From Burkholderiales bacterium (GTDB lineage Bacteria; Pseudomonadota; Gammaproteobacteria; Burkholderiales; Casimicrobiaceae): a stretch of 64,000 nucleotides of DNA. Numbering within the stretch: position 1 is the stretch's first letter; every line of letters begins with the position of its first letter. Position numbers and translations under genes: made by a program. The DNA lies in contig JADZDD010000035.1 of assembly GCA_020851235.1 (NCBI GenBank), forward strand, positions 434,001 through 498,000. The letters are read 5' to 3'. The notes beneath the pieces were generated by a model. It searched no databases. It saw only the letters and a list, made by a program, of their open reading frames with translations, and was not told where the DNA came from. Below are positions 17,772-32,757 of the stretch, one piece after another.

Positions 17772-18533
17772 ATGCCCTGGCCCATCGTCTGGCCGCTCTC
17801 CCCGCTGGAAACCCTGTGGTGCGCCGTGGCGCTCGCCGGCGGTTACGCCGTGCGCGGCGCTGCGGGCTTCGGCTCGGGCGTCGTCGCCGCGCCGCTCCTG
17901 ACTTTCGTCCTGCCGCTGTCCACGGTCGCGCCGGTGATCACGATCCTGGGACTCGTCGTGTCGACACAGCAGGCGCTGCGCGACTGGCTCCTCATCGACT
18001 GGCGCCGCCTCGCGATCTTCGTGCCCGGTTCGATCGTCGGTGTGGCGCTCGGCGTGCTCGCCTTCAAGGCGGTCGATCCTGCGGCGCTCGCGCGCTGGCT
18101 CGGTGCCTACGTGCTTCTCTACGCGCTGTACAGCATCATGGGCGAGCGGATCATCGGTCGCACGCTGACGTTGCCGCGCTGGATGGCGCACCCGGTCGCG
18201 CTCATCGGTGCGCTCGTCGCGACGGTGTTCGGCGGCCTCGCCGGACCCATCTACGTCACCTACCTCGATTCGCAGAAGCTGCCGAAGAGTGTGTTTCGCG
18301 TCACCGTGTCGACGACGCTCCTCGTGCTGGGGCTCCTGCGCTCGGCAGCGTACGTCGCAAGCGGCGTCTTCCGCGCCCAGGACTTCGTGCTCATCGGGGC
18401 CGCACTCCTGCCGGTGGCCATCGGCACCTTCATCGGCGATCGCTTCCACGACCGTCTCGACCCCAAGGCATTCCGCCGCGGCGTGGGAATCCTGCTCGTG
18501 ATGAGTGCGATCGGACTCATGATCGCGCATTGA
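17772..18533 (+). CDS. TauE/SafE (TSUP) family permease
   Basis: A 253-residue inner-membrane protein with about eight hydrophobic segments. GAAGFGSGVVAAPLL near 30-45 and FGGLAGP near 155-162 are the paired signature repeats of the TSUP family, whose members export sulfite, sulfoacetate or other organosulfonates or take up small anions. It stands alone between the divergent MoxR gene and the SMP-30 gene. A role as sulfite exporter for the sulfolactate cluster 11 kb away is possible but not shown by position. Confidence 0.9.
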   Translation: MPWPIVWPLSPLETLWCAVALAGGYAVRGAAGFGSGVVAAPLLTFVLPLSTVAPVITILGLVVSTQQALRDWLLIDWRRLAIFVPGSIVGVALGVLAFKAVDPAALARWLGAYVLLYALYSIMGERIIGRTLTLPRWMAHPVALIGALVATVFGGLAGPIYVTYLDSQKLPKSVFRVTVSTTLLVLGLLRSAAYVASGVFRAQDFVLIGAALLPVAIGTFIGDRFHDRLDPKAFRRGVGILLVMSAIGLMIAH

Positions 18534-27171: not shown

Positions 27172-28335
27172 ATGGAACGCGAACGCGCCACCAAGTTCAT
27201 CCACGAGCTCCTCGACCTGCTCACGAAGCAGAACGGGTCGGACCTCTTCATCACCGCGAGCTTCCCGCCGGCGATCAAGGTCGACGGCAAGATCACCCCG
27301 GTGTCGAAGACACAGCTGTCGCCGCAGCACACGATCGAGCTCGTGCGCAGCGTCATGAACGACAAGCAGGCGGCGGAGTTCGAAGCCACGCGCGAATGCA
27401 ACTTCGCGATCAGCCCGCCGGGCATCGGCCGCTTCCGCGTCAACGCCTTCGTACAGCAGGGCCGTGTCGGGATGGTGCTGCGGACGATCACGACGCACAT
27501 CCCGAAGTTCGAGGAGCTCGGCCTGCCGCCCGTGCTGAAGGACGTGATCATGTCCAAGCGCGGCATCATGATGTTCATCGGCGCCACCGGCTGCGGCAAG
27601 TCGACGTCGATGGCCTCGCTGCTGGGCTACCGCAACGAGAACAGCTACGGCCACATCATCACGATCGAGGATCCGATCGAGTTCGTCCACGAGCACATCA
27701 ACTGCATCATCACGCAGCGCGAGGTGGGCGTGGACACCGACGACTGGCAGGTCGCGCTCAAGAACACGCTGCGCCAGGCGCCCGACGTGATCCTGATCGG
27801 CGAGGTGCGCGAGCGCGAGACGATGGACTACGCGATCAGCTTCGCGGAGACCGGCCACCTGTGCCTCGCCACGCTGCACGCGAACAGCACCAACCAGGCG
27901 CTCGACCGCATCATCAACTTCTTCCCGGAAGAGCGGCGCGCCCAGCTCCTGATGGACCTGTCGCTCAACGTCCGCGCGTTCGTCGCACAGCGCCTCATTC
28001 CGCGCCGCGACGGGCGCGGCCGCGTCCCGGCGGTCGAGGTGATGCTCAATTCGCCGCTCATCTCCGACCTCATCTTCAAGGGCGACGTCGGTGGCATCAA
28101 GGACATCATGAAGCGCTCACGCGAGCTCGGGATGCAGACCTTCGACCAGTCGCTGTTCGATCTGTACGAAGCCGGCCTCATCACCTACGAGGATGCCCTG
28201 CGCAACGCCGACTCCCTGAACGACCTGCGCCTCGAGATCAAGCTGCACGGCAAGGAGGCCAAGAACCGCAACGTCTTCTCGGGTCTCGGCAACATGGACA
28301 TCGTGCAGGATCAGCAGAGCAACTCGGTCATCTGA
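27172..28335 (+). CDS. pilU: PilT-like retraction ATPase PilU
   Basis: A 387-residue paralogue of PilT that assists retraction against load. Walker A is GATGCGKS at 137-144; TIEDPIEFVHEH, LIGEVRERETM and LATLHANSTNQ follow. It has the longer C-terminal tail typical of PilU (about 30 residues after EALRNADS). ATG 27172 matches the family start. Confidence 0.97.
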   Translation: MERERATKFIHELLDLLTKQNGSDLFITASFPPAIKVDGKITPVSKTQLSPQHTIELVRSVMNDKQAAEFEATRECNFAISPPGIGRFRVNAFVQQGRVGMVLRTITTHIPKFEELGLPPVLKDVIMSKRGIMMFIGATGCGKSTSMASLLGYRNENSYGHIITIEDPIEFVHEHINCIITQREVGVDTDDWQVALKNTLRQAPDVILIGEVRERETMDYAISFAETGHLCLATLHANSTNQALDRIINFFPEERRAQLLMDLSLNVRAFVAQRLIPRRDGRGRVPAVEVMLNSPLISDLIFKGDVGGIKDIMKRSRELGMQTFDQSLFDLYEAGLITYEDALRNADSLNDLRLEIKLHGKEAKNRNVFSGLGNMDIVQDQQSNSVI

Positions 28336-28405
28336 CCGCGCGCGATCCGCTGCGCCGCGTGGCGGCGCGCGGCGGCGTCCGGTGATCGAGTCGGCGCGGC
28401 GCGCG

Positions 28406-29185
28406 TCACACCGGCCGCGACAGCAGGTTCACGTAGTCGTACGCGCTCGTCACGATCGTGCTCACCCGGTATTCGACGGGCTGCCCACCGAGCGCGATCG
28501 CGGTGCGACGCACCTGCAGGACCGGCGCCCCCGATGCAAGACCGAGGACGCGGGCGCTCGCCCGGTCGGCCGCCACGGCGCGCAACCGCTCGTGAACGTG
28601 GACGACGGTCACGCCGAACTCGCTTTGGTACAGACGATAGATCGTGCTCGCCCGCTCGCGCACGCGCTTTTCGGTGAGGCCGCGGAACATCGTCGCCGGA
28701 ATCACGATCCGGTCGTGGACGACCGCCGATCCCTGGAGCTTCAGCCGGTTCTCGATCGCGAAGGCCGGCGTGCCGATGCGAGTGGCCAGTGCCGTGGCCG
28801 TGTCGTCGTCCATCCGGATCCGCTCGAACGACAGGAAATCGACCACCGGCGCCTCGCGTCGCCCGTCGCTGCGCTCGACGTGGAAGAACTGGAACAGGAA
28901 CCGGTCGCGCGTGTGCGTGGCAACGAAGGTGCCCCGGCCCTGACGCCGCACCAGGATATGTTCGTTCACGAGGTCGTCGACGGCACGCCGTAGCGTGCCG
29001 ACCGAGACGCCGAACGCACCGGCGAGCGCGGTTTCGTTCGGCAGCGCCGCGCCTGGCGAGAGCTTGCCGTCCTCGATCGCGCGAAGCAGCGCGCGGCGCA
29101 CGGCACGGTACAGCGGCATGCCCGCCGCCTCTGGCGCGATCGGCGTGAAGCCGGCGGCGCGGCCCGGGGTCTTGTCGATCGGCAT
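28406..29185 (-). CDS. GntR/HutC-family regulator (UTRA domain), likely sulfolactate regulator
   Basis: A 259-residue repressor-type regulator. The winged helix-turn-helix spans about 25-90 (LYRAVRRALLRAIEDG, LPNETALAGAFGVSVGTLR, GRGTFV), followed by a UTRA ligand domain to the end (GLTEKRVRERASTIYRLY, VHVHERLRAVAADRASARVLGL, VSTIVTSAYDYV). It is divergent from suyA, 136 bp away, with an inverted repeat between. The most direct reading is that it responds to sulfolactate or a related acid and controls suyAB-slcC-comC. ATG 29185 is taken; a TTG seven codons upstream is possible. Confidence 0.9.
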   Translation of the reverse strand: MPIDKTPGRAAGFTPIAPEAAGMPLYRAVRRALLRAIEDGKLSPGAALPNETALAGAFGVSVGTLRRAVDDLVNEHILVRRQGRGTFVATHTRDRFLFQFFHVERSDGRREAPVVDFLSFERIRMDDDTATALATRIGTPAFAIENRLKLQGSAVVHDRIVIPATMFRGLTEKRVRERASTIYRLYQSEFGVTVVHVHERLRAVAADRASARVLGLASGAPVLQVRRTAIALGGQPVEYRVSTIVTSAYDYVNLLSRPV

Positions 29186-29222
29186 GCGCCGATTGTGCGG
29201 CAGCAAGGGGCAACCCGTCTAT

Positions 29223-29236
29223 ATCATCCATATGAT
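29223..29236. promoter_or_regulatory. Inverted repeat, candidate GntR operator
   Basis: ATCAT (29223-29227) and ATGAT (29232-29236) form an inverted repeat with a four-base centre, in an AT-rich patch of an otherwise GC-rich region. It lies five bases upstream of the proposed -35 element of suyA and between the two divergent genes. Confidence 0.4.
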
Positions 29237-29240
29237 GTGA

Positions 29241-29269
29241 TTGACGGGCCGGGCCTTGCTCACGATACT
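29241..29269 (+). promoter_or_regulatory. Sigma-70-type promoter for suyAB-slcC-comC
   Basis: TTGACG (29241-29246) and GATACT (29264-29269) are 17 bases apart, matching the consensus at 5/6 and 4/6. The suyA start codon at 29322 lies about 45 bases after the expected transcription start and has its own AGAGGAG ribosome site. Confidence 0.5.
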
Positions 29270-29321
29270 TGGCGCCGATGATCCCGAACGGGCCTCGTGC
29301 GAGGCAGAAGAGGAGCGAACG

Positions 29322-29603
29322 ATGATTCATTTCGTATTGCACGACGCGAACGACAGCGTGGCCGTGGTCGTCGTCGAGGGCGTCAAGGCCGGCATGGACC
29401 TGTCCGGTTGGATCATGGACGAGGACCGCACGACGCGGATCACCGCGAAGCAGGACATCCCGATCGGCCACAAGGTCGCACTGCGCGACATGGCGGTCGG
29501 CGACACGGTGATCAAGTACGGGCTCGACATGGGCAAGGTCGTCGCGCCGATCCACGCGGGCGAGCATGCCCACGTCCACAACATCAAGACCAAGCGCTGG
29601 TAG
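29322..29603 (+). CDS. suyA: (R)-sulfolactate sulfo-lyase small subunit SuyA (SAF domain)
   Basis: A 93-residue SAF-domain protein, the small subunit of the UxaA-type lyases. [28 protein letters not shown] and the ending [12 protein letters not shown] fit SuyA of sulfolactate degraders. SuyAB splits (R)-3-sulfolactate to pyruvate and sulfite in the cytoplasm. It has an AGAGGAG ribosome site and is followed 16 bp later by the large subunit. The alternative is a two-subunit altronate/galactarate dehydratase; the downstream dehydrogenase pair favours sulfolactate. Confidence 0.85.
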
Positions 29604-29619
29604 GAAGGGGGCGACAGTC

Positions 29620-30795
29620 ATGGCAGTGATTGGCAAGGACACGACTTTCCTGGGCTACCGGCGCGAGAACGGCCGCGTCGGCGTGCGCAACCACGTCATC
29701 ATCCTGCCGCTGGACGACCTGTCCAACGCGGCAGCCGAGGCGGTGGCGCACAACATCAAGGGCACGATGGCGATCCCGCATCCGTACGGGCGGTTGCAGT
29801 TCGGGGCGGACCTGGAACTGCATTTCCGCACGCTGATCGGAACGGGCCGCAATCCGAACGTGGCGGCCGTGGTCGTGATCGGAATCGAGGAAGGCTGGAC
29901 GCAGAAGGTCGTCGACGGCATCAAGGCGACCGGGAAGCCGGTGTGCGGCTTCGGCATCGAATTGCACGGTGATCACGACACGATCATGCGGGCGAGCAAG
30001 GCGGCTCGCGAGTACGTGCAATGGGCGAGCGAGAAGCAGCGCGAGCGCTGCCCGATCTCGGAGCTTTGGGTCAGCACGAAGTGCGGCGAGAGCGATACGA
30101 CGAGCGGCTGCGGCTCGAATCCGTCGGTCGGCAATGCCTTCGACAAGCTCCATGCGCTGGGCAACTACCTGTGCTTCGGCGAGACCACCGAGATCACCGG
30201 CGGCGAGCAGATCGTCGCGGCGCGCTGCGCCAACGACGCGGTGCGCGAGCGGTTCATGTTCATGTTCAACCGCTATCAGGAAGTCATCGACCGGCACAAG
30301 ACGAGCGACCTGTCCGACAGCCAGCCGACCAAGGGCAACATCGCCGGCGGCCTCACCACGATCGAGGAGAAGGCGCTCGGCAACATCCAGAAGATCGGCA
30401 AGAAGTGCACCGTCGACGGCGTGATCGACAAGGCGGAGATGCCGACGCATCCCGGCCTGTGGTTCATGGACTCGTCGAGCGCCGCCGCCGAGATGGTGAC
30501 GCTGTGCGCCGCTTCGGGCTACGTCGTCCACTTCTTCCCGACCGGACAGGGTAACGTGATCGGCAACCCGATCCTGCCGGTGATCAAGCTCTGCGCGAAC
30601 CCGCGCACCGTGCGCACGATGAGCGAGCACATCGACGTCGACGTGACGGGGCTCTTGCAGCGCGAGATGACGCTCGACCAGGCAGGCGACAAGCTGCTCG
30701 TGTGCATGCTGCGCACCGCGAACGGACGCCTCACCGCGGCCGAAGCGCTGGGTCACCGCGAGTTCGTGCTGACGCGCCTGTACGAGAGCGCGTGA
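29620..30795 (+). CDS. suyB: (R)-sulfolactate sulfo-lyase large subunit SuyB
   Basis: A 391-residue UxaA-family large subunit, expected to hold an iron site. Landmarks in order: [39 protein letters not shown] with three cysteines, [31 protein letters not shown] and [14 protein letters not shown]. The cut-down two-gene form (93 + 391 residues), rather than a single 500-residue altronate dehydratase, is how SuyAB occurs. Product release is pyruvate plus sulfite. It is followed 40 bp later by slcC. Confidence 0.85.
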
Positions 30796-30835
30796 GCGCC
30801 GCGGCCCGCGGGCGCCACCCTTCGGGACGCGCGTG

Positions 30836-31762
30836 ATGAGCCGGATCGTCGTCACCGAGTTCATGGACGAGCGCGCGGTCGCGAAGCTCGCGGCGCGGCA
30901 CGACGTCGTCTACGACGCCACACTCGTCGACGATGCGCCGCGTCTCGCGCGCGAAGCCGCGCGCTGCGACGCGATCGTCGTGCGCAACCGCACGCAGGTG
31001 CGCGGCGCGCTCCTCGACGCGCTCGCGAACTGCCGCGTCGTCGGCCGCCTGGGTGTGGGACTCGACAACATCGACGTGGCAGCCTGCGAGGCGAAGGGGA
31101 TGCGGGTCATTCCCGCGACCGGCGCCAACGCGCTCGCCGTGGCCGAATACGTCGTCGGCGTCGCGCTCGTGCTCCTGCGCGGGGTCTACGCCTCGACGGC
31201 GCGTGTTGCCGCCGGCCAGTGGCCGCGCACCGCGCTGTCGTCCGGACGCGAGATCGCCGGCAAGACGCTGGGTCTCGTCGGCTTCGGGTCGATCGGACAA
31301 CTGACCGCGCAGCGCGCACGCGCGCTTGGCATGTCGGTGCAAGCCTGCGACGCCATGCTTGCGGCAGACCACCCGGCATACGCCGAGAACGGCGTCACCG
31401 CGACGTCGCTCGACGCGGTCGTCCAGACGTCCGACGTCGTGAGCCTCCACGTCCCGCTCGTCGCCTCGACGCGGGGTCTCTTCTCTGCCGCGCGCATCGC
31501 CGCGATGAAGCCCGGCGCCGTGCTCGTGAACACCGCGCGTGGCGACATCGTCGATGAAGTGGCGCTCGCGCAGGCGCTGAAGGAAGGCCGCATCGGCGGC
31601 GCCGCGCTCGACGTCTTCGGCACCGAGCCGCTGCCCGCCTCGCCGCATTTCGAGGGCTGCCCGAACCTCATCCTCACGCCCCACGTCGCCGGCGTCACGG
31701 CAGAGGCGAACGAGCGCGTGAGCTTCCTCATCGCGGACAAGGTGCTGGAGGCGCTGGCATGA
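30836..31762 (+). CDS. slcC: D-2-hydroxyacid dehydrogenase family, likely (S)-sulfolactate dehydrogenase SlcC
   Basis: A 308-residue NAD-dependent dehydrogenase of the phosphoglycerate dehydrogenase family. GLVGFGSIGQ is the NAD site (about 145-154), and the catalytic set is Arg in NTARGDIVDE, Glu in DVFGTEPLP and His in LTPHVAG. In sulfolactate degraders SlcC oxidises (S)-sulfolactate to sulfopyruvate, which ComC reduces to the (R) form used by SuyAB. The opening RIVVTEFMDE fits that group. Its stop overlaps comC by an ATGA junction. A GTG one codon upstream is possible. Confidence 0.85.
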   Translation: MSRIVVTEFMDERAVAKLAARHDVVYDATLVDDAPRLAREAARCDAIVVRNRTQVRGALLDALANCRVVGRLGVGLDNIDVAACEAKGMRVIPATGANALAVAEYVVGVALVLLRGVYASTARVAAGQWPRTALSSGREIAGKTLGLVGFGSIGQLTAQRARALGMSVQACDAMLAADHPAYAENGVTATSLDAVVQTSDVVSLHVPLVASTRGLFSAARIAAMKPGAVLVNTARGDIVDEVALAQALKEGRIGGAALDVFGTEPLPASPHFEGCPNLILTPHVAGVTAEANERVSFLIADKVLEALA

Positions 31763-32757
31763 AACTGCCGCTCGCCGAGGCTCGGGCGATCGTCGCGAGC
31801 ACGCTCGAACGCGCCGGCGCGACGCCGGCGATGGCCGCCTCGACCGCGCGGGCGCTGGTGCTCGCCGAAGCGCAAGGTCTGGGTTCGCACGGGCTTGCGC
31901 GCGTGACGCAGTACGCGACGCACCTTCGCAACGGCCGCGTCGACGGCGCCGCGACGGCATCCGTCGCGCATCGCAAGGGTGCGGCGATCGTCGTCGACGC
32001 CGCGAGCGGTCTCGCCTTTCCCGCGTGCGACCTCGCGGTCCGCGAAGCGATCGCCGCGGCGCGCGAACACGGCATCGCGCTCGCCGGGGTCGTGCGCAGC
32101 CACCACTGTGGCGTCCTCGTCGATCACCTGCGACCCGCCGCAGCCGCCGGCATGGTCGGGCTCGGTTTTGCGAACTCGCCCGCGGCGATGCCTGCGGCCG
32201 GAGGCCGGCACCCGATCTTCGGCACCAATCCGATCGCCGCTGTGTTCCCGCGGCGCGCTGCCGATCCCCTGGCCATCGACCTTAGCCTGTCGGAGATCGC
32301 GCGCGGCAAGGTCATGGTCGCGGCCAGGGAAGGCAAGCCGATTCCTCACGGCTGGGCGCTGGACGCCAAGGGGCAGCCGACGACCGACGCGAAGGCCGCG
32401 CTCGAAGGATCGATGCTGCCGATCGGCGCGGCAACGTCGCCCAAGGGCGCCATGCTGGCGCTCATCGTCGAACTGCTCGTGACCGCGCTCATCGGCGGCC
32501 GCTACGGCTTCGAGGCGTCGAGCTTCTTCGTCGACGAGGGCGACCGTCCCGGGATCGGCCAGACGTTCGTCGTGATCGACCCGGGCGCGCTTGCCGGCAG
32601 CGACGCGTACCTCGATCGCCTCGAGGTCCTGGTCACCGAAATGCTGCAAGACGAAGGCGTGCGGCTCCCCGGTGCGCGACGCGAGGCGCTCCTGCGCCGG
32701 GCCGAACAGGAGGGGATCGAGGTCCCCGACGACCTCGTCCGCCGCGCCCAACAGTAA
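31759..32757 (+). CDS. comC: Malate/L-lactate (Ldh2) family, likely (R)-sulfolactate dehydrogenase ComC
   Basis: A 332-residue NAD(P)-dependent oxidoreductase of the Ldh2/YlbC fold, unrelated to SlcC. SHGLARVTQYATHLRNG, the catalytic His region VRSHHCGVLVDHL, GLGFANSPAAM and HPIFGTNPIAAVFP are family landmarks. ComC interconverts sulfopyruvate and (R)-sulfolactate. Together with SlcC it would act as a two-step racemase feeding SuyAB. It overlaps slcC by four bases and is the last gene of the cluster. Confidence 0.85.
   Translation: MKLPLAEARAIVASTLERAGATPAMAASTARALVLAEAQGLGSHGLARVTQYATHLRNGRVDGAATASVAHRKGAAIVVDAASGLAFPACDLAVREAIAAAREHGIALAGVVRSHHCGVLVDHLRPAAAAGMVGLGFANSPAAMPAAGGRHPIFGTNPIAAVFPRRAADPLAIDLSLSEIARGKVMVAAREGKPIPHGWALDAKGQPTTDAKAALEGSMLPIGAATSPKGAMLALIVELLVTALIGGRYGFEASSFFVDEGDRPGIGQTFVVIDPGALAGSDAYLDRLEVLVTEMLQDEGVRLPGARREALLRRAEQEGIEVPDDLVRRAQQ

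Follow-up and report, generated by a model that had tools for sequence, protein, structure and literature searches.

Which compound does a compact run of five genes in a member of the Casimicrobiaceae serve to degrade? The genes lie at positions 28406 to 32757 of a 64,000-nucleotide stretch, called the window below, of contig JADZDD010000035.1 from a Burkholderiales bacterium (GenBank assembly GCA_020851235.1, positions 434,001 to 498,000). The initial annotation had called a divergent regulator, suyA, suyB and slcC- and comC-like genes there, and all five calls proved right. Its reading of the group as a sulfolactate cluster was supported by the orthology of SuyB, by the position of SuyB in a phylogenetic tree and by the same gene order in Paracoccus wurundjeri. 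The gene content, the orthology of SuyAB, the conserved synteny and a conserved palindrome were observed directly. The cassette is very probably sulfolactate-catabolic, with inversion of the substrate by two dehydrogenases, cleavage to pyruvate and sulfite by SuyAB, and control by a GntR protein. Comparable sulfolactate gene sets have been described from other bacteria.

Identity of the lyase

The large subunit showed Pfam matches to GD_AH_second (8.7e-34) and GD_AH_C (2.2e-85), and a separate small SuyA gene lies directly upstream, as in SuyAB lyases. SuyA had no Pfam match, a weak match to the NCBIfam galactarate dehydratase N-terminus (1.3e-7) and a match in PDB to altronate hydrolase 3k3s (1.5e-13), and it was 73% identical to SuyA of Cupriavidus pinatubonensis. 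A plasmid search with SuyB gave 316 records, the best being C. pinatubonensis HN-2 with 84% identity, where the gene adjoins annotated hpsN and hpsO. Thirteen records reached at least 60% identity (2 at 80 to 90%, 11 at 60 to 80%), and the next identities were about 40% among the matches listed (276 records were unlisted). The identity of the window SuyB to that of Paracoccus was about 68%.

In a maximum-likelihood tree of 24 rows, the 18 SuyB rows formed one group with a support of 100/100 and a stem of 1.51. The six other UxaA-type rows fell outside it, including the two UxaA paralogues of the same genome, which were 35% and 32% identical to the window SuyB; the tree program flagged long branches among these outgroup rows. 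The SuyB group also takes in Paracoccus proteins whose genes adjoin putative sulfate exporters. The closest named relatives were from Burkholderiales such as Leptothrix and Piscinibacter. An identity of SuyB as an altronate or galactarate dehydratase, which the initial annotation had set against its own reading, was rejected, as both the tree group and the gap in identity (84% against about 40% among the listed matches) place SuyB by orthology with SuyAB.

Four cysteines are said to be conserved in UxaA/GarD enzymes other than SuyAB, according to the available text of PMC6336799. The column of SuyB C155 held cysteine in 18 of 18 SuyB rows and in 6 of 6 outgroup rows alike, and the remaining cysteine-rich outgroup columns held it in just 4 of the 6 outgroup rows, so that with this outgroup the cysteines did not discriminate between the two sets. 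Recombinant SuyAB of Desulfovibrio DF1 is described as forming pyruvate and sulfite from sulfolactate, with SuyB alone partly active (PMC6278857, available text). The comparisons support the window lyase as a SuyAB-type ortholog, that is, a predicted (R)-sulfolactate sulfo-lyase for which sulfite release and Fe2+ dependence are likewise predicted.

Dehydrogenases, relatives and the proposed pathway

The SlcC-like protein matched the Pfam families 2-Hacid_dh and 2-Hacid_dh_C (the latter at 3.3e-57), and its best NCBIfam and PDB matches were of the phosphoglycerate dehydrogenase type. This is consistent with a 2018 classification in which SlcC of Chromohalobacter salexigens belongs to the SERA group or lies next to it (PMC6303947, available text). 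Homologues linked to suy genes in Paracoccus and Methylobacterium were 54 to 59% identical to the SlcC-like protein, and the Rhodococcus homologue 40%. The ComC-like protein belongs to the Ldh_2 family (2.1e-94) and showed 46 to 49% identity to the suy-linked homologues of Paracoccus and Methylobacterium and 38% to that of Rhodococcus. Its putative name was given by synteny and analogy, not by the NCBIfam model NF040650.

The closest described counterpart is P. wurundjeri strain Merri, for which suyAB-slcC-comC and a route from (S)-sulfolactate via sulfopyruvate and (R)-sulfolactate to pyruvate and sulfite have been proposed (PMC12421959, available text). By locus number the four genes stand in the order of the window. 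In that strain they belong to a cluster of 24 genes that also holds genes for sulfofucose degradation and an ATP-binding cassette (ABC) transporter, whereas the window cassette is on its own, flanked by pilU and a GBBH-like_N gene. For C. salexigens, a racemase activity of SlcC and ComC together with SuyAB is known from papers citing Denger and Cook 2010; two dehydrogenases of the window's kinds thus occur with SuyAB there as well, a likeness by description only. Plasmids of Paracoccus versutus, P. seriniphilus and P. aestuarii carry a divergent GntR gene, suyA and suyB as in the window, and the latter two also carry slcC- and comC-like genes. Unlike the window cassette, the plasmid loci have a putative sulfate exporter (3 of 3) and a tripartite transporter (2 of 3) alongside.

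For C. pinatubonensis the published order is hpsRNOUPsuyAB, from the characterised cluster of strain JMP134 (PMC11382572, available text), and the HN-2 record matches it with hpsN, hpsO, a major facilitator superfamily transporter, an alcohol-dehydrogenase-like gene in the position of hpsP and then suyAB. The 29-kb stretch of HN-2 gave no homologue of slcC or comC, whereas the window has both. Sulfolactate arises in C. pinatubonensis from 2,3-dihydroxypropane-1-sulfonate via HpsN. In the genome studied here a candidate HpsN was rejected: the one match, at 36%, is without the HpsN motif GRY-A/S-H and likewise without the exact GSAPL of HisD, and was taken as a histidinol dehydrogenase.

The survey of suyB loci comprised the best 80 of 590 confirmed loci, and its counts describe close relatives only. 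Fifty-three of the 80 had flanks of 5 kb or more on either side of suyB and were comparable; the other 27, with a flank below 5 kb, were dropped. Neighbours were counted within 11 kb of suyB at the survey's identity thresholds. In the comparable loci suyA was always near suyB (53/53), and a GntR homologue was found in 45. Both slcC and comC were present in 29, comC alone in 12, slcC alone in none and neither in 12, which gives an slcC homologue in 29 and a comC homologue in 41 of the 53 loci. TctC genes occurred in 21, DctA-type genes in 11, hpsN in 9 and a SuyZ-like exporter in 8 of them; a TauE-like gene was found in 9 of all 80 loci. A chance grouping of the cassette genes was rejected because they are recurrent neighbours in the 53 comparable loci. 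The loci with comC and without slcC were L018, L027, L036, L037, L038, L040, L041, L046, L058, L067, L080 and L081, some of them with a DctA-type transporter. The combination of suyAB and comC without slcC suggests that what enters the pathway at such loci is (R)-sulfolactate or sulfopyruvate.

For the window cassette we infer the substrates, their stereochemistry, the directions of the dehydrogenases, regulation, uptake, sulfite export and every catalytic step in this organism as follows. The SlcC-like enzyme would oxidise (S)-sulfolactate to sulfopyruvate, which the ComC-like enzyme would reduce to (R)-sulfolactate. The presumably iron-dependent SuyAB would then eliminate sulfite from (R)-sulfolactate, and the remaining pyruvate would support growth. 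Through the palindrome at 29223 to 29236, the divergent GntR/UTRA protein probably acts as repressor of the operon, with sulfolactate or a metabolite related to it as the releasing signal. This order of reactions is the one put forward for C. salexigens and P. wurundjeri (PMC12421959, available text).

Several observations weigh against this reading. The PDB and NCBIfam matches name SuyB solely as galactarate dehydratase (6u7l; TIGR03248), the score for TIGR03248 being 147.7 bits and thus far under the cut-off of 730.85. The best NCBIfam match of the ComC-like protein was L-sulfolactate dehydrogenase NF040650, but at 190.8 bits it stayed below the cut-off of 500; in PDB the top match was 1wtj (ureidoglycolate dehydrogenase/delta1-piperideine-2-carboxylate reductase, 1.9e-48), and L-sulfolactate dehydrogenase 2x06 ranked behind it (6.5e-38). 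The SlcC and ComC assignments are weaker than that of the lyase, being based on synteny and family and not on the characterised Chromohalobacter sequences. The pair slcC-comC is not obligatory, as seen from the 12 of 53 loci with comC alone and the 12 with neither gene. The exact core of the palindrome is absent from 36 of 62 GntR-suyA intergenic regions. In addition, the genome showed no matches to PF03601, PF04976 or PF01077, and no transporter adjoins the cassette.

The galactarate dehydratase matches would also suit a cassette for the breakdown of a sugar acid or of a different 3-substituted lactate, with a two-piece dehydratase of the UxaA type and two dehydrogenases inverting a hydroxy acid. 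A locus with the same types of genes does exist: plasmid 4 of Variovorax sp. SRS16 (L170, 724-6276) carries GntR, a 2-hydroxyacid dehydrogenase, a two-piece UxaA, TctC and Ldh_2, and its lyase is only 38% identical to SuyB. The architecture alone can therefore not identify the substrate. The window SuyB, however, falls inside the 100/100 SuyB group and the Variovorax lyase outside it, and the dehydrogenases beside that lyase are 38% identical to the SlcC-like and 33% to the ComC-like protein, compared with 54 to 59% and 46 to 49% for the suy-linked copies of Paracoccus and Methylobacterium. In some relatives hpsN (9/53) and a sulfate exporter (8/53) are also linked to suyB. A different lactate or sugar acid as substrate is very improbable. 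Alternatively, SuyAB could be genuine and the dehydrogenases could mainly make sulfopyruvate for another branch, leading to sulfoacetaldehyde or cysteate, instead of inverting sulfolactate. Such branches by decarboxylation and amination have been described (PMC11382572, available text), but slcC and comC form one tight run with suyAB, and no ComDE, Xsc or CuyA was present among the identified flanking genes (only these neighbours were checked, not the genome at large). We accord this second explanation just as slight a chance, and sulfolactate inversion followed by SuyAB cleavage is the reading retained.

Gene layout, regulator and candidate operator

The features of the cassette are listed in Table 1. 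The start of the regulator at 29185 is one choice, as a TTG at 29206 is likewise open. The gaps are 16 bases between suyA and suyB and 40 bases between suyB and slcC, and the slcC-like and comC-like genes overlap by 4 bases, which makes a single transcript likely. The initial annotation had noted no adjacent gene for transport or sulfite oxidation, and the neighbours agree with this: two T2SSE ATPases on the left, which we name pilT and pilU, and on the right genes for a GBBH-like_N (DUF971) protein, UbiE and a UbiB-like ABC1 kinase, all housekeeping genes. An Rfam scan of the window gave no match at the gathering thresholds, and a tRNA scan of the window found none.

Table 1. Features of the cassette, in window coordinates.
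Feature	Position	Strand	Remarks
GntR/HutC-type (UTRA) regulator gene	28406-29185	-	Divergent from suyA; Pfam GntR and UTRA; presumed local repressor/sensor
Candidate operator ATCATCCATATGAT, core TCATN4ATGA	29223-29236	.	Palindrome in the GntR-suyA intergenic region
Promoter-like hexamers TTGACG-17-GATACT	29241-29269	+	Directly past the candidate operator; consensus scan
suyA	29322-29603	+	Predicted small subunit of (R)-sulfolactate sulfo-lyase, 93 amino acids
suyB	29620-30795	+	Predicted large catalytic subunit of (R)-sulfolactate sulfo-lyase, 391 amino acids
slcC-like gene	30836-31762	+	D-2-hydroxyacid dehydrogenase, presumed (S)-sulfolactate dehydrogenase
comC-like gene	31759-32757	+	Ldh_2 family, presumed (R)-sulfolactate dehydrogenase (sulfopyruvate reductase)
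Cassette extent relative to sister genome G003	28334-32755	.	blastn breakpoints 28333/28370 and 32747/32756

The regulator matched the Pfam families GntR (3.4e-18) and UTRA (6.3e-26), both above their cut-offs, and its best NCBIfam match was HutC with 96.3 bits, below the cut-off of 220. The core TCATN4ATGA was present in 26 of 62 divergent GntR-suyA intergenic regions, compared with 0.13 expected from mononucleotide shuffles; the 62 regions are a subset of 71 loci with GntR and SuyA matches, filtered for divergent order and spacing and with the window locus excluded. Three copies of the bare core occur in the window against 0.43 expected, and 2 of 100 shuffles reached three. The longer pattern RTCATNYANATGAB, chosen so that the window copy is included, gave two sites in the genome, at window positions 29223 and 14781, and none for the reversed control. 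The consensus site of the HutC subfamily is GT-MTAK-AC (PMC4494728, available text). The conserved core AT-MTAK-AT has the same spacing and centre, with AT/AT for GT/AC. Judged from the recurrence of its core, the palindrome is a likely operator of the GntR/UTRA regulator. The consensus scan also found two pairs of promoter-like hexamers between 28300 and 32900, compared with 0.1 in shuffles, a count that says nothing on function. No published GntR regulator or operator of suyAB was found in the searched literature, which leaves out most subscription papers, and no claim to priority is made; where the available texts mention suyAB and GntR together, the GntR passages concern other genes.

Place in the genome and fate of sulfite

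The site occupied by the cassette was compared among related genomes. Of 61 genomes, 57 have the GBBH-like_N gene, and 30 of these loci were retrieved, including that of the window. In 20 of the 29 other loci, and in 16 of 19 from the same genus, pilU was within the flank (at most 1.5 kb) of this gene, and comC was beside it in none of the 29 within the same flank. In the nearest relative, G003, pilU and the GBBH-like_N gene are near each other without the cassette. Its copy lies on another contig (L155, 522-5432), where neighbouring genes encode an HpcH/HpaI aldolase and an ABC transporter of the sugar type. These are of the kinds used in sulfosugar degradation, so that sulfolactate in G003 may derive from a sulfosugar; the best match to this aldolase in the window genome was 43%. 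A third genome, G019, has suyA-suyB-slcC-comC between malate synthase and nitroreductase genes, with no GntR homologue detected in that stretch. At several further loci of the genus, suyB is followed by a gene for an ABC binding protein in place of slcC. Among the 61 genomes, 29 (the window genome included) have suyB at an E value of at most 1e-150; within the genus it is present in 17 of 21 genomes besides that of the window. The different sites in the window genome, G003 and G019 indicate that the cassette changed place within the genus. Neither the junctions nor the listed repeats (20 of the 37 direct families and 25 of the 48 inverted pairs) showed terminal repeats or an insertion sequence at the ends of the cassette, and its base composition does not stand out.

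The completeness of the genome was 98.84%, and absences were judged against 14 controls. The sulfite reductase family PF01077 was found in 11 of the 14 controls and gave no match in the genome. A PF01077 sulfite/nitrite reductase is expected in a free-living relative of the Burkholderiales, and its absence may reflect either a true sulfur auxotrophy or a gap. No match was obtained in the genome for PF03601, the family of SuyZ-type exporters (6 of 14 controls), or for PF04976 (DmsC), which we take to be the family of SoeC; the latter, found in 1 of 14 controls, is a weak negative. The one protein with the sulfite-oxidase domain PF00174 is encoded next to a cytochrome b561-like gene (contig C11); it was 28% identical to the sulfite oxidase homologue of P. 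versutus and was rejected as a sulfite dehydrogenase. Four TauE-family proteins are encoded in the genome, none of them clearly a partner of the cassette. One of them is a TauE/SafE-family membrane protein whose gene (window 17823-18515, +) precedes the cassette by about 10 kb. Aligned over 95 residues, it shares 29% identity with the TauE encoded next to suyAB in Methylobacterium radiotolerans, with no clear orthology. As the genome encodes 31 TctC binding proteins, none of these can be tied to the cassette.

A wider picture may be drawn tentatively, and we consider it less likely than not. A self-contained cassette suyA-suyB-slcC-comC, usually with the GntR gene and the palindrome, would have relocated within the genus, with three sites in three close relatives and the third copy without a detected GntR gene. 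It would be under a HutC-type regulator with the variant site AT-MTAK-AT, in a host without a recognisable sulfite reductase, which might use sulfolactate for carbon only and export or otherwise oxidise all the sulfite.

As no sulfite reductase or exporters were found, the fate of sulfite in this organism becomes an answerable question. The candidate operator offers a testable site and would be helpful for finding co-regulated transporters. With the cassette, SuyAB-type cleavage of sulfolactate gains a firmly placed example in a genus where suyB is common.

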